From positions 1-43,499 of IMG/VR virus record IMGVR_UViG_3300022689_000011: a stretch of 43,499 bases of DNA, one strand, 5' to 3'. The DNA comes from a virus. This document shows, piece after piece, positions 4,535-10,687 of this stretch. A model generated the notes under the pieces. It ran no database searches, was not told the origin of the DNA, and worked only from the letters and a program-made list of their open reading frames with translations. Made by a program: the position numbers and the translations under genes. The first letter of the stretch is position 1. Each line of letters opens with the position of its first letter.

Positions 4535-5182
4535 CTACACCCGAATTTCGATTACGTCGATTGCGGGCACACTTGCTGCGTCGAATGCGTCTACGCTTAG
4601 TTCCAATTCGTCTGCGTCGAAACGCACAGGTACGTCGAATTCAAACCCTGCCGTGATCTGCACGCCGTTGCCGGGGGCCGCGTCAAATGTGACGATACCC
4701 GTTGTGGTATCGACCGTCCAGCCCGAACCTTGAGCGACGCCACCAAGCCCGATTAGGACCGTGCCCGCGACGGGCTTTTTGATCGGGCGGGAATAGCCCC
4801 CGGCGTTGTCCAGATAGTTCTTGACAAGCTGGAATTCGGTTTGTGCGCCGTCGCCTACGCCAATAGCTTGATCGTCGAATGCGGCGTTAACGCGCCACCC
4901 GCCGTTATGCGACGTAAAGTCGGTCCAATCCTTCCACCGGAACCCGTACAGGGGGCCGCTACGGGCTTCCCAAAAGGCCAAGACGGCTTGGATAGCCTGC
5001 GGGGTTCCCCCAAGCTTCTGCACGCCGATACCGGCGTTGTACTTGCGGCGTGAGTGCGCCCAAATTTGGTTGCGTTCTTCGAACCCCGACTTGAGGCCGA
5101 CAATCTGCGTAAGGCGCTGCGGACCCCCGGTAGAGCCGTAAGAGATTTTGCCGGGAAACTGTATTTCGTGAAAGGCTGGCAT
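4535..5182 (-). CDS. Distal tail protein, DUF2460 family
   Basis: A 215-aa protein of the DUF2460 family, the equivalent of the GTA distal tail protein (Dit-like) that forms the ring under the tail tube. Family signs are the N-terminal FHEIQFPGKISYGSTGGP, the central SGPLYGFRWKDWTDF and the C-terminal IDVIEIRV. It starts in a TAATG overlap with the tape measure gene and is followed after 5 bases by the hub gene, so the three are almost certainly co-translated in fixed ratio. Confidence 0.93.
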   Translation of the reverse strand: MPAFHEIQFPGKISYGSTGGPQRLTQIVGLKSGFEERNQIWAHSRRKYNAGIGVQKLGGTPQAIQAVLAFWEARSGPLYGFRWKDWTDFTSHNGGWRVNAAFDDQAIGVGDGAQTEFQLVKNYLDNAGGYSRPIKKPVAGTVLIGLGGVAQGSGWTVDTTTGIVTFDAAPGNGVQITAGFEFDVPVRFDADELELSVDAFDAASVPAIDVIEIRV

Positions 5183-7869
5183 TACAAGTTCCTTTGTCCG
5201 CGCTGCACCATGCGGGCTTGTCGCGCCCCGGCCTGCGTTTCAGAGATACGGACCTTGGTATTGGGGTCGTTGCTCTTTACTTGGACTACGAAGCGGTTTT
5301 CGTTGTTGACTGTGGTATTGCCGATCTTGGCAGGCTGCGACGGTGCCCGGAAAGGCCGTACCGCCCCGCCGTCCGCGAATTGCGGCACTGCCCGCGTCGG
5401 TTCGCGGTTGTCGTTGATTGCTTGAAGCAACGGCAGGTATTGGGCGGTTGCCCGCGCGTTGACGACGAATTCGCCGTTGGAAAGCCGCGCAAGTATCTTG
5501 TCGTCGCGCGGCCCGCCCGGTCCCGATACGCGGCCCCCGTCTGCGAACTGTACGGCCTGTAGCGACGCCACAATGCTTGCCCCTTGGGCTGCGATAATCG
5601 CGTAGTTGGCGATTTTCTGTGCCGGGGTAAGTGCGGTCGGGTCCGCAAGAACGGCTGCGGCGGCTTGCTGGATTTTGATAATGCTTTCGGCAATGGCGAA
5701 GCCCTTGGACACGATAAACAGGGCCTTGTACGCGGCGCTTTGTTCGCCCGCAAGACCCGCCGCCATTTGCGCCAAACTGTCAAACGTAGCCCCCGCCGCC
5801 TGTAGAATGTCGGTATTGCGGGTAACTTCGATCTGCCGTATTTCTTCGGCTGCGGCGCGGTTAATCTCGACGACACGCGCGGCGGCTTCTTCTTCGGCAA
5901 TAATGCGATTGTTAAGCGCCTCTTGCACGATATCCAAGCGCTCTTGTTCCCGCGCCCGCACTTCGTCAAGTTCGGCTTCGTAGGCAAAAGACGTGCCCAC
6001 AAGTTCTTGGTCGAGTTGCCGCAGGTCGCGCACAAGTTCTTGGTACGCTTCGGCTTCCTGCCGTGCTTCCCGTGCCCGCGACGCTACGCTACCGCCGCTA
6101 CCGCCGCGCGACGCCCGCGCTTCGGCTTCGCGGTCTGCGGCGTTCAACCGTATACGTTCTTGGTTGAGCCGTTCGGTTTCTGCGGCGGCGTCACCGATCA
6201 AGCGCACCTGTTGTTCAAGGTACGCGATTTCCCCCGGCCCCGCGCCGTCGCGCAATACCTCTTGTTCTGCCCGCGCCCGTTCTTCGGCAAGTGCCCGTGC
6301 CCGGCCTACGGGGTCTGTGCGGAATTCAAGGTTGATTTCCGCTACGCGTAGATCGTTGATACCCGCCGACCGCAGTTGGTCAAGGGCTGCGATAGCGTTG
6401 CGAATTTCTGCCGTGACACTGCGTACGTCGTCACGCATGGCAAGGGCCGCGTTACCGCCATTGGCGAACGCTTGGCGGGCCGTGCCTTCGAAGTCAATCA
6501 ATGTGGGAATAAGCCCTTGGTCAACTTCGATACCCAATTGCTCAAGCAACACGCGGAATTCTTGGCTTTCGCGTGCGGCTTCTTCGAACGTTTTGGCGTC
6601 GCGCAAGTCTTGATACGCGGCCAACACGCGACGGGCGTTGGCTTCGGTCAAGTCGAGTTCGCCAAGCTGTACTTCGATAATGCGGTTAAGGTTGTTGAAT
6701 TCTTGCCCCGCCGCCGAAAGCCCTGCGGTAATGCGGTTAAAGTTGGCTTCACCCGACAGGCCGACCCGATCAAGGGTTTCGCGGAAATTTTCGGCGGCTG
6801 CGGCTAGGCGCTCTTGATCGTCGCCCGCCTCAAGATACTGCCGGTAGGCGTCGGACACGGCAACAAGTTGGTCTTCGGTAAGGCCAAGCGTCAACAGAAT
6901 ACCGCGTGCGTTCTGTTGGTATATTTGGTTTACGTTGTCGATACCGCGTACGGTGCGCAAGATGCTTTGCGAAAATTCGTCTTGTTCGATTGCGGTAAGT
7001 GCGGTCTGCAACGCGTTAAGCGCCTGTTGTTGGCGCAAGCGCTCAAGGGCGTCAACGAAGTTCTGCACTTCTGACGCATTGCCGCCGTATTCTTCGGCAA
7101 GTTCGACCAACGGTTGACGGGCAAGGCGGGACGCTTCCCGAAGGTCGTACACAGCGTCCGCAAGTTCTTCTGTGGCCTTCGAAGCGTCTTCGGACCCGTC
7201 GAGAATGCCGGGCAGAAGGTAAGAGATAAGCGGGATACCGATAGCAAGTACAACACCAATCGCAGCCCCGACCGCGCCGAACGCCCCGGCCATTTGCGGC
7301 AACTGTTGACCAAGCACGACGCTAGTACGCGTGCCCATTTGCATTTGTACGATAATGTCTTGAAGCTGAAAGCTTGTTTGCTGAATAGCGCCGCGCACTG
7401 CCCGGCTATTCCGCGTAAGAATGTTCTGCGCAACGGCGGCACGCTGCGTCGCAGAAGCTTGCCGGTCTTTGGCCGCAGCAAGACGAAGCGAAGCCGCTTC
7501 TTCGTTCACAAGGGCAGTACGCGCACGCGCTGCGGCGTTCGTCGCGTTTTCCGTCGCAATCGCCGTGCGCTGTTGTTCGGTCGCTAGGCGCTGCGCAGAT
7601 ACCGCCGCCGTTGCGTTTGCCGTTGCTTCGCGGCTGCGGGCCGTGACAAGCCGCGCCGAAGCTGCGGTTTGCCGGGCCTGTGCCGTCGTAAGCTTGGCCG
7701 AAGCCGTCGCCAGTTTGTCGAGTGATCCGACCCCAAGGCTATTGAGGCTTCCTTGCACCCTGTCAAGCGCCGCGTCGGCCTTAAGTGCCGCCGCAGCCAT
7801 GTCTTTTAGCTTACGCGTAGGCGCGGTCGAAACTTGGTCCGTAATGATAATGTCGATACGTTCGGCCAC
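5182..7869 (-). CDS. Tail tape measure protein
   Basis: An 895-aa protein that sets tail length and fills the tail lumen. The first 190 residues are Ala/Thr/Arg-rich coiled coil (repeated AxxRxxTAxxR heptads). A hydrophobic helix lies at about 193-223 (AIGVVLAIGIPLISYLLPG). A long second coiled coil follows, and near the C-terminus comes the motif FADGGRVSGPGG...DDKILARLSNGEFVVNA, seen in many tape measure proteins. At about 1.5 angstrom per residue, the rule known from lambda, the tail would be about 130 nm. The start is GTG at 7867-7869, 5 bases after the preceding gene. Confidence 0.95.
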   Translation of the reverse strand: MAERIDIIITDQVSTAPTRKLKDMAAAALKADAALDRVQGSLNSLGVGSLDKLATASAKLTTAQARQTAASARLVTARSREATANATAAVSAQRLATEQQRTAIATENATNAAARARTALVNEEAASLRLAAAKDRQASATQRAAVAQNILTRNSRAVRGAIQQTSFQLQDIIVQMQMGTRTSVVLGQQLPQMAGAFGAVGAAIGVVLAIGIPLISYLLPGILDGSEDASKATEELADAVYDLREASRLARQPLVELAEEYGGNASEVQNFVDALERLRQQQALNALQTALTAIEQDEFSQSILRTVRGIDNVNQIYQQNARGILLTLGLTEDQLVAVSDAYRQYLEAGDDQERLAAAAENFRETLDRVGLSGEANFNRITAGLSAAGQEFNNLNRIIEVQLGELDLTEANARRVLAAYQDLRDAKTFEEAARESQEFRVLLEQLGIEVDQGLIPTLIDFEGTARQAFANGGNAALAMRDDVRSVTAEIRNAIAALDQLRSAGINDLRVAEINLEFRTDPVGRARALAEERARAEQEVLRDGAGPGEIAYLEQQVRLIGDAAAETERLNQERIRLNAADREAEARASRGGSGGSVASRAREARQEAEAYQELVRDLRQLDQELVGTSFAYEAELDEVRAREQERLDIVQEALNNRIIAEEEAAARVVEINRAAAEEIRQIEVTRNTDILQAAGATFDSLAQMAAGLAGEQSAAYKALFIVSKGFAIAESIIKIQQAAAAVLADPTALTPAQKIANYAIIAAQGASIVASLQAVQFADGGRVSGPGGPRDDKILARLSNGEFVVNARATAQYLPLLQAINDNREPTRAVPQFADGGAVRPFRAPSQPAKIGNTTVNNENRFVVQVKSNDPNTKVRISETQAGARQARMVQRGQRNL

Positions 7870-7874
7870 TGCCC

Positions 7875-8303
7875 CTAACCCCTTGTTTGTTCCTTGACGT
7901 AGTTACGGCCCAACAATACCGCCGCGTCTACGAAGGCCCCCGGATGCTGTGCAGACGACCCGGCGTTAAGCCTTAGTATATACTCGACAACGTTTGAAAT
8001 GTAAATGTCGTCGCCCGGCTCTTTGCGGGCCAACATGGCTTCGCCCTGCCGTAGCGCGGCTTCTGCACTTGCCCCGCGCGTGCTTCCAAATACGCCGGGA
8101 AAATACGGCCCGATTTCTTCGGATACTTGCAAATTGAGTGAGACTTGCCAGTTGGACAACGCGTTAGTCGTGTCTACGGGGGTATCGTAAACCAAAGAGC
8201 GCAGCACTACACGCGCCGCGCCCTTAGCAAGTTCGTTGCCGGTGTCTTCGACCTTATCCGCTTCGTCGTAAAGGCGTTGTGCTAAGGATCGAAGCGTAGC
8301 CAT
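7875..8303 (-). CDS. HK97 gp10-like putative tail completion/minor tail protein
   Basis: A 142-aa protein. The segment DTPVDTTNALSNWQVSLN resembles the PVDTGxLRxSW signature of the HK97 gp10/neck protein superfamily. Its place between the tail chaperone and the tape measure is unusual, as gp10-like genes normally lie before the tube gene, so the name rests on the motif only. The start overlaps the stop of the frameshift product (TAATG). Confidence 0.6.
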   Translation of the reverse strand: MATLRSLAQRLYDEADKVEDTGNELAKGAARVVLRSLVYDTPVDTTNALSNWQVSLNLQVSEEIGPYFPGVFGSTRGASAEAALRQGEAMLARKEPGDDIYISNVVEYILRLNAGSSAQHPGAFVDAAVLLGRNYVKEQTRG

Positions 8304-9066
8304 TATGCGCGTTTCCGTTTCTTGTGCAGTTGCTTTAGATACGCGTTATCAGCTTCCCTTACGTAATACGCTAGGCTTTCTTCTGTGAACCCGTATCGGT
8401 CTGCGTATGCAACTATGCTAGACCACGGAATAGGTTGTAGGTCCGCAAGGCTGCGTTCGGTGTCTAGGTCAAAGAACGCCGTCAAGTACACGTCAAGGTG
8501 CGGCGGCAATTCCGGCTTGTCGGTAAACGTTTCGGGAACTTCGCCCCCGAAACGCTTGATCTGTTTTAGTACGGTACTTTCTGCGTCGTTGTCCGTATCG
8601 GCTTCGTGCAGAAGTACCGCTACTATTTTCCCGCGTCTTCTTTCGCCGCCCCGCTCTGATAGTTGGACGTACGAATTGCCTTCGCGCGAAGAAGGTTGCA
8701 CAGGTCGGCCCAATCGGGGTTTCCGATATATTCCTTGGCCGCTTCGGCGCTGTACTCGACATTCACGCCGTCGTCTGCGGGCTGGAAGTTGCGCCAATCC
8801 AGCAAGACCCCTTCAAGGAACAAATCAACGTCGAATTGGTCGTACAGGTCGTCGGGCAGGTCTTCGACGCGTGCGACGTCATGTTCGGACAAGTACCGGG
8901 CAGTGACTTCGGCCACGGCGCGGGAAAAGCGCTTGTTTTGGCTTGAGTTCCGCCCAAGCAAGAAACCGGGCACGGTCTTGTCGAGATTGGGGCTTTCGGG
9001 GAAGTTGAACCATACGCCTTCGTTGGCAAGGTTCGTGTCGGCCTTGAAGCGACTTGCGAGTGTCAT
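8303..9066 (-). CDS. Tail assembly chaperone, -1 frameshift fusion (gpGT-like), about 254 aa
   Basis: After a -1 shift on GGGAAAA the reading continues ...DAGK-IVAVLLHEADTDNDAES... to the stop at 8303, giving 254 aa with a 107-residue extension. The extension (RSLADLQPIPWSSIVAYADRYGF...KRKRA) begins no plausible gene by itself: the open frame upstream of the junction is a low-complexity Arg-rich shadow of the short form. This is the lambda G/GT arrangement, in which the T part contacts the tail tube protein. Confidence 0.8.
8571..8632 (-). promoter_or_regulatory. Programmed -1 frameshift site: slippery GGGAAAA plus stem-loop
   Basis: Slippery heptamer G GGA AAA at 8632-8626, in the zero frame of the short chaperone, followed directly by TAG. 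After a 5-nt spacer a stem starts at 8620: 8608-8620 pairs with 8571-8584 (13 bp, one bulged A, one G-U pair) around a 23-nt loop. Lambda uses GGGAAAG for the same genes. Heptamer, spacing and stem together make this a textbook signal. Confidence 0.85.
8623..9066 (-). CDS. Tail assembly chaperone, short form (gpG-like)
   Basis: A 147-aa product lying just upstream of the tape measure region, the position of lambda gpG. Its last codons are GCG GGA AAA TAG, which contain the slippery heptamer GGGAAAA directly before the stop (see the site at 8571-8632). Most ribosomes should end here; a minority shift -1 and make the long form. The start at 9064-9066 has the ribosome site AGAAGGATACC. By family role it coats the tape measure protein during tail assembly and is not in the virion. 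Confidence 0.85.
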   Translation of the reverse strand: MTLASRFKADTNLANEGVWFNFPESPNLDKTVPGFLLGRNSSQNKRFSRAVAEVTARYLSEHDVARVEDLPDDLYDQFDVDLFLEGVLLDWRNFQPADDGVNVEYSAEAAKEYIGNPDWADLCNLLRAKAIRTSNYQSGAAKEDAGK

Positions 9067-9127: not shown

Positions 9128-10687
9128 TTATTCTGCGGGCATTGCAACGTCCGGCAGGTACGGGAATTCCGTAAACGACATGGTGTAGCCGGTCGGGCTT
9201 TCCGCGCCGTTGATTTCAAGCGGGAACGTGATCGGTTGGCCTTTCTCGACGACAAGTCGGCCCCCGGCGCTTCCCGCGTACGGAATGTCGTACACGATAC
9301 CTTCGTTTTCGCGGGCAAGAATTGCGTTGTAGCCGATATCCTTGTTGTTGCGAATGGCCTTGACGCTTTCAACGGTCGTAAAGTACGCCGTTACGGAACC
9401 GCCGCCGACGAAGTTGCCCACAGTGATATCGAAGCCGCCGAATTCCCCGACCCCTTCGACTGCGGACGCGTTGTTGTTGATCGTGAACGACGCTTCGGAC
9501 GCGTAACCAAACATGCCGGTAGGCGACAGGGTGGACGCGTCAAGGATCGTCGCAGCAAGCCGCCATACGGCCTTGGACGTGTTGTAGGGCTTCGCCTTGG
9601 GGTAGGCAACGTGCGTGCCCGCCTTGCGCCCCTCAAGCCCCGTACGCGCTTCGTTGTCAAGCGCCACGTAGCCGAAGTCAAGCATGTGCTTGTCTTTCGT
9701 CGGAATGTTGGCCGTGAGTTCGTTTGCGACCGCGCCCTTGAGGTATTCGGACTGCGTGCCGTCGTCGTCTTCGCCCAACGTCCGTTCGACGTGGTACGTG
9801 CGGCACTTGATAAGCGACGGGTCGTCTTCGTTGCGGATATACCGACCGAAGAAAACGCGAATGCTCTTGCTTGCGCCCGCGTTCGTTGCCAGCGTGCCGC
9901 CCGTCCATGCAACGTCGTCAAGCACGACGTTGTTGTTGTCCTTCGACAACACGCGACCGTATCCGTAGCCGTTGGCAAAGCGGTTGGCCGCGTCGTCGCC
10001 GCCAATAAAAATCCATTCGCCAACTTGGATATCGCAGTTGAACCAACCGCCCGCAGCGCTGTTGAGCGTGGCCGTACCGCCCGACACGGTAAGCGACATA
10101 TCGTCGGCACCAAACGCGAAGCCGACTTGCTGAATACGCGCGGCGGCGGGCGGGGCGGCTTCTGCGACGGTAGCAATGTCGGTCGTCAACAGGCCAGCCG
10201 CAGCCGCAGACACGGTGCCGACCCCGTTGTTGGCCGCGTCGGTGAACCCGGACGCAAGAACGATTGCGCCTACGGCAAAGGCGTCAAGTCCCGACGCGGC
10301 GTCGTATTCGCCGGAATTTGCCCCGCCGCCTACGCCGGTAATTGCAATCGCGGTTCCGTTGAAAGGCGCGGTATCGACCTTTTCGTGCGCGTCCGCGAAA
10401 AAGAAGCCTTGCATGTCGCGGGCAAGTGCGTTCTTGGCGTCGATATTGTAGCCGCCTGCGGCTTCGACGCCGGTTGCGGTGCCGCGTTGGTTTTGGCGCG
10501 ACGCGTTGATTTCGTCGGCTGCAACGTACGTCACGTCGCCCCCGAAGTCGCTGTACGAATTCACGCCCCGGTCGTACCACGTCGGCGTACCGGGGTTGCC
10601 GTTTTCGCCGGGCAGGTACTTCGGTTCCGCTTCTTCTGCGACCGAAACGCCCGTAACGTTGCTGTTGATCGTCTTCTTACCTGCCAT
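9128..10687 (-). CDS. Major tail tube protein
   Basis: A 519-aa protein in the tube position (after the terminator-like gene, before the chaperones). N-terminal GVSVAEEAEPKYLPGE...PTWYDRGVNSYSDFGGD and C-terminal ESPTGYTMSFTEFPYLP are typical of siphovirus tube proteins of the Phage_tube_2 kind. It is long for a tube protein (often 150-350 aa). The middle third (about 110-290) is Ala/Gly-rich with immunoglobulin-like beta character and may be a surface insertion. It should be among the most expressed proteins and is followed by a strong hairpin. Confidence 0.8.
   Translation of the reverse strand: MAGKKTINSNVTGVSVAEEAEPKYLPGENGNPGTPTWYDRGVNSYSDFGGDVTYVAADEINASRQNQRGTATGVEAAGGYNIDAKNALARDMQGFFFADAHEKVDTAPFNGTAIAITGVGGGANSGEYDAASGLDAFAVGAIVLASGFTDAANNGVGTVSAAAAGLLTTDIATVAEAAPPAAARIQQVGFAFGADDMSLTVSGGTATLNSAAGGWFNCDIQVGEWIFIGGDDAANRFANGYGYGRVLSKDNNNVVLDDVAWTGGTLATNAGASKSIRVFFGRYIRNEDDPSLIKCRTYHVERTLGEDDDGTQSEYLKGAVANELTANIPTKDKHMLDFGYVALDNEARTGLEGRKAGTHVAYPKAKPYNTSKAVWRLAATILDASTLSPTGMFGYASEASFTINNNASAVEGVGEFGGFDITVGNFVGGGSVTAYFTTVESVKAIRNNKDIGYNAILARENEGIVYDIPYAGSAGGRLVVEKGQPITFPLEINGAESPTGYTMSFTEFPYLPDVAMPAE

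Follow-up and report, generated by a model that had tools for sequence, protein, structure and literature searches.

Programmed frameshifting in phage tail chaperones is already textbook knowledge. In phage lambda, the genes follow the order tail tube, G, T and tape measure, and ribosomes slip by -1 at G GGA AAG, close to the end of G, as reported in PMC5009743 and as we verified on the sequence, in agreement with the comparison drawn in a preliminary description of the DNA studied here. The same article gives a 30:1 ratio for lambda together with the roles of G and GT, and 6-7% was measured for two tail chaperone genes (PMC3711429). The stop codon lies 15 nt after the heptamer in lambda, and the mean heptamer-to-stop distance is 26 nt in SEA-PHAGES and 36 nt in the Xu phages (PMC10274946). 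Adjacency is in print for Loki, where the stop directly follows AAAAAAC (PMC5313236), and, through an identical motif, for IME_AB3. In the available part of the literature searched on phage tail-chaperone frameshifts, which did not cover Xu, Hendrix and Duda 2004, we found no family-wide statement of stop adjacency. Regarding the heptamers, AAAAAAC and GGGAAAC are described as low-efficiency in E. coli, and GGGAAAA appears twice, in a list of inefficient motifs taken from earlier studies and among the more efficient ones (PMC4066793).

Here we analysed the virus contig IMGVR_UViG_3300022689_000011 over its whole 43,499 bases (the window). It is an ordinary and convincing case of lambda-type frameshifting in tail chaperones, with the same succession of tail tube, G, T and tape measure genes and a slip site near the end of G. 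Unlike lambda, the window carries GGGAAAA followed at once by tandem stops, and a Neck1 gene is present between T and the tape measure gene. The novelty is small and consists of the family-wide conservation of the adjacent stop with its codon-usage signature, a covarying stem and a single instance of GGGAAAA.

Anatomy of the G-T junction

The tail-chaperone junction is encoded on the minus strand, to which all coordinates below refer; the preliminary description gave the correct coordinates, leaving the strand unstated. Gene G, the zero-frame tail assembly chaperone, spans 8623-9066 and comprises 147 codons plus a TAG stop (phrog_313, E 2.7e-20; phrog_8233, E 2.7e-15). Its 3' end reads GCG GGA AAA TAG TAG, so that the slippery heptamer G GGA AAA (8626-8632) is in the X XXY YYZ frame and is directly followed by two zero-frame stops (8620-8625), TAG at 8625-8623 and TAG at 8622-8620. 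The 5-nt spacer TAGTA (8625-8621) leads to a 13-bp stem with one bulged A, in which the 5' arm (8620-8608) pairs with the 3' arm (8584-8571, carrying the bulge); sequence, folding and covariation all point to this stem. In the minimum-energy fold, UAGUA is paired too, and the helix can extend back to the heptamer. The -1 frame, T, runs from 8626 to 8303 for 107 codons plus TAA and would be read only after the slip. It matches Pfam PF23812 Phage_TAC_18 (E 4.9e-20; 71.9 bits against a cut-off of 27) as well as phrog_3817, and its TAA overlaps the ATG of the next gene (TAATG, 8303). Each of these elements, from the in-frame heptamer and immediate TAG to the spacer, stem, frame length and TAATG overlap, had been proposed beforehand and was found in place.

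The predicted products are G, of 147 aa, and G-T, of 254 aa. The predicted residues at the junction are …DAGK|IVAV…, and a trypsin cut falls exactly on it; the predicted Glu-C peptide across the junction is DAGKIVAVLLHE. Among the 7671 codons of the 20 window ORFs, only three in-frame XXXAAAN/XXXTTTN heptamers were counted, one of which coincides with the last sense codons of G. phrog_8233 covers G at profile positions 9-140 and T at 139-251; since a single profile spans both, G and T are head-to-tail parts of one family.

The neighbouring genes have the identities expected from lambda-type loci, with two overlapping frames between the tail tube and tape measure genes and Neck1 intervening. 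The upstream gene (9128-10687) encodes the tail tube protein (PF18906, E 1.8e-13). This protein is 519 aa long and matches the 266-position Pfam model nearly end to end, and therefore likely carries a large insertion. The next gene (7875-8303), whose ATG overlaps the TAA of T, encodes an HK97-gp10-like tail completion/Neck1 protein (phrog_169, E 5.8e-28). It is followed by the tape measure gene (5182-7869; phrog_25241, E 9.9e-50), whose product is the presumed client of the chaperones. Neck1 thus separates T from the tape measure gene, with which the chaperone region has no direct contact; the same arrangement is annotated in Kakheti25 and Loki.

The heptamer and its adjacent stop among relatives

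We collected 24 phage records and 70 IMG/VR loci, the latter selected by T homology, independently of heptamer or stop. An in-frame heptamer was present near the end of G in 23 of the 24 phage records. These 23 records, the 70 IMG/VR loci and the window make 94 loci, or 80 distinct loci once 14 duplicates are removed. The remaining record, Lana, was found through G alone and was excluded from the counts; its G-like gene ends without a heptamer, and its annotation contains no T-like gene. A first scan of viral contigs with the G protein as query returned no relative, and the T profile matched nothing in the bacterial genomes scanned, so that no prophage copy was seen. Of the named phages found, Paracoccus phage vB_PmaS-R3 is the closest, and T identity to the window falls as low as 26%.

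GenBank already gives a frameshift or a joined G-T in Kakheti25, KL1, RcRudolph, Sonora, phiCbK and Loki. In four other records (L002, L007, L008 and L012), T is entered as a gene in its own right whose start lies downstream of the junction, which cuts off conserved T residues. The PSV3 annotation places a reverse-strand gene over the tail tube region and splits the chaperone G into two overlapping pieces.

Exactly one in-frame XXXYYYZ heptamer was found in every one of the 80 distinct loci. Relatives lacking it had been named as the outcome that would speak against a frameshift; none occurs in this set, Lana being the one record without it. The heptamer is AAAAAAC in 59 loci, GGGAAAC in 20 and GGGAAAA in the window alone. 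The stop is the very next codon in 72/80 loci (54 AAAAAAC, 17 GGGAAAC and the GGGAAAA of the window), as TAA in 56, TGA in 13 and TAG in 3, and a tandem stop pair is present in 13/80. One sense codon precedes the stop in five further loci, all with AAAAAAC; within the close clade of the window, the stop is displaced by one codon in 3 of 9. In the last three loci, the Mesyanzhinovviridae M6, CN2 and Sonora, all GGGAAAC, the stop lies 30-39 nt further on. These three phages keep GGGAAAC, then read TCT, and their G is 10-13 codons longer; they either lost the adjacent stop or never acquired it. An immediately adjacent stop had been called unusual: this holds against lambda and against the mean distances cited above from PMC10274946, and fails within the group itself.

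Adjacency of the stop leaves a trace in the overlapping frame. The letters of the stop fall within the first two -1 codons, so that a first Leu must be encoded by CTA (or CTG) and the next -1 codon must begin with A (or with G after CTA). CTA was found at 59 of 79 Leu sites, against 7.1 expected from each locus's own Leu usage, and ATA at 15 of the 34 sites with Ile as second codon, against 8.0 expected; the loci are related, and these counts are not independent events, though T identity goes down to 26%. Because the otherwise rare Leu codon CTA is in such excess, and because a constraint on the peptide alone would not demand CTA, we read this bias as selection on the stop, which seems, from sequence comparison, to be selected rather than merely tolerated.

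The downstream stem

The stem was assessed on an ungapped alignment of the nine closest phages, in which it is conserved. RNAalifold recovered the pairing of 8620-8608 with 8584-8571 unaided. In this stem, as first proposed, 89.7% of the cells are paired, 8 cells are changed on both sides and the covariation is 0.368, each of these values being reached by 1/500 shuffles; slid versions gave covariations of 0.154 or less. An alternative pairing behaved similarly (88.9% paired, 8 both-side cells, covariation 0.333, 0/500 shuffles; at most 0.167 for slid versions). For the number of pairs with both sides changed, no excess over shuffles was seen (94/500 in both pairings), nor for pair types (295/500 and 254/500 for the two pairings).

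Folding was compared with synonymous recodings of the same peptide. The window site has a z of -2.84, with 2/300 recodings as low, and the mean z is -2.35 for the nine closest phages and -1.27 for all 80 loci; seven control positions gave values from -0.79 to +0.13. Raw folding energy alone does not set the window stem apart, since 366 of the 4344 sixty-nt segments of the strand fold at least as well. Across the 80 loci, a helix of at least 9 bp starts at the right place in 32 (9.3 expected) and one of at least 11 bp in 20 (2.8 expected), and we therefore rejected a universal stem. In Titanvirus-like and several Septimatrevirus loci, no stem above chance was detected (RcTitan, z +1.2). Sequence comparison thus indicates a real stem in the window's clade, where it covaries a few nt after the heptamer, and in some other loci, and its absence in many.

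An upstream Shine-Dalgarno-like stimulator, as in dnaX, was also considered and rejected: relative to synonymous recoding there was no excess (mean z -0.16; 4/80 below -1.64). The purine run before the heptamer has G at -11 in 74/80 loci and A at -10 in 80/80.

Slippage, termination and known systems

Taken together, the homology of both frames, the conservation of the heptamer, the covariation of the stem and the lack of a start heading the second frame uphold the programmed -1 frameshift first proposed for this gene: the sequence evidence makes it almost certain that the locus encodes a short G and a long G-T tail assembly chaperone in the manner of lambda. After GGA AAA, most ribosomes would end translation at the UAG that follows, and a minority would slip back one base on GGGAAAA and continue into T, helped by the hairpin 5 nt downstream, which would pause the ribosome. 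Ribosomes that do not shift would meet the stop as their next codon and terminate at once, so that slippage and termination may be in competition at one ribosome position. By analogy with lambda, we infer that G binds the tape measure protein, that T recruits the tail tube protein and that the ratio of the two products matters.

Alternatively, most slips might take place once translocation has brought UAG into the A site and left tRNALys on AAA in the P site; the release factor would then be in direct competition with slippage. This termination-coupled slippage is a sub-model of the frameshift above and yields the same protein; consequently, slipping before UAG enters the A site and slipping while awaiting RF1 are indistinguishable, and the anatomy does not separate it from A/P-site slippage. 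The position of the stop, at the next codon in most loci and one codon further in five, and the CTA excess are in its favour, as is the finding that a stop placed after the HIV heptamer lowered frameshifting in bacteria, that added release factor lowered it further and that RF2 abolished it (PMC4373837). Yet in that HIV work the adjacent stop lowers, and does not raise, shifting, and the GGGAAAC of the three Mesyanzhinovviridae loci has no stop next to it. We regard it as a real possibility that falls short of being the probable course. Competition with the release factor, suggested in the preliminary description, is plausible by analogy with such cases.

Production of T by reinitiation or from an independent start, without any frameshift, is very improbable. 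An ATG, GTG or TTG does occur within the first 12 -1 codons in 55/80 loci, and several GenBank records give T as a separate gene, but inspection of the window revealed none of these codons in its first 12 -1 codons. Related phages with an independent start had also been named beforehand as an outcome against a frameshift, but start positions are not shared, the commonest first one (TTG at the fifth codon) being found in 23/80 loci, and the alignment shows T homology beginning at the first residue after the slip, with L1, V4 and L5 conserved, so that conserved residues lie before any start. Reinitiation would also leave the heptamer of all 80 loci unexplained.

A change of frame by transcriptional slippage on the A run would suit the six A of AAAAAAC, in 59/80 loci, but the run is only four A long in the window and three in the 20 GGGAAAC loci. 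Runs of three or four A are generally too short for polymerase slippage, and this route appears even more remote than reinitiation. A reading as two ordinary genes that overlap, with heptamer and stem arising by chance, is favoured only by the commonness of such raw folding energies in this strand; it was already disfavoured and has next to no probability given the rarity of in-frame heptamers in the window, their conservation in 80/80 loci and the covariation.

Conservation of the stop in 72/80 diverged loci by way of a rare Leu codon suggests that termination is part of the signal. We tentatively propose, as a rather doubtful extension of the lambda-type frameshift, that the stop is a selected component of the tail-chaperone signal in a large group of siphophages and in the jumbo phage phiCbK, where a weak heptamer (AAAAAAC or GGGAAAC) and an immediate stop would let competition between slippage and termination set the chaperone ratio, which might then track host release-factor activity. 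These loci constitute a natural set of -1 sites for tests of release-factor competition in bacteria, with ready contrasts in the distance to the stop (0, 3 or 30-39 nt), in its identity (UAG, UAA or UGA) and in the heptamer (GGGAAAA, AAAAAAC or GGGAAAC).

Among known systems, Paracoccus phage vB_PmaS-R3 resembles the window in T (59% identity) and G (39%), in its tandem stop and in the position of its stem, and differs in reading AAAAAAC TAA TAG, hence in heptamer and first stop; its GenBank record has T as a gene of its own, with a start beyond the junction. Loki gp12/gp13, from an Acinetobacter phage, and Kakheti25 gp18/gp19, from a Pseudomonas phage, have a homologous T region and a heptamer directly at the stop, but with AAAAAAC in place of GGGAAAA, TAA as first stop and low identity (45% in T for Kakheti25). 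Barley yellow dwarf virus and Rous sarcoma virus are RNA viruses of eukaryotes, and their proteins are unrelated to tail chaperones. Their -1 sites share with the window a heptamer directly followed by a stop (PMC4373837). Finally, the release-factor-sensing frameshift of prfB is in the +1 direction, in contrast to the -1 shift of the window, where only the adjacency of the stop was observed.
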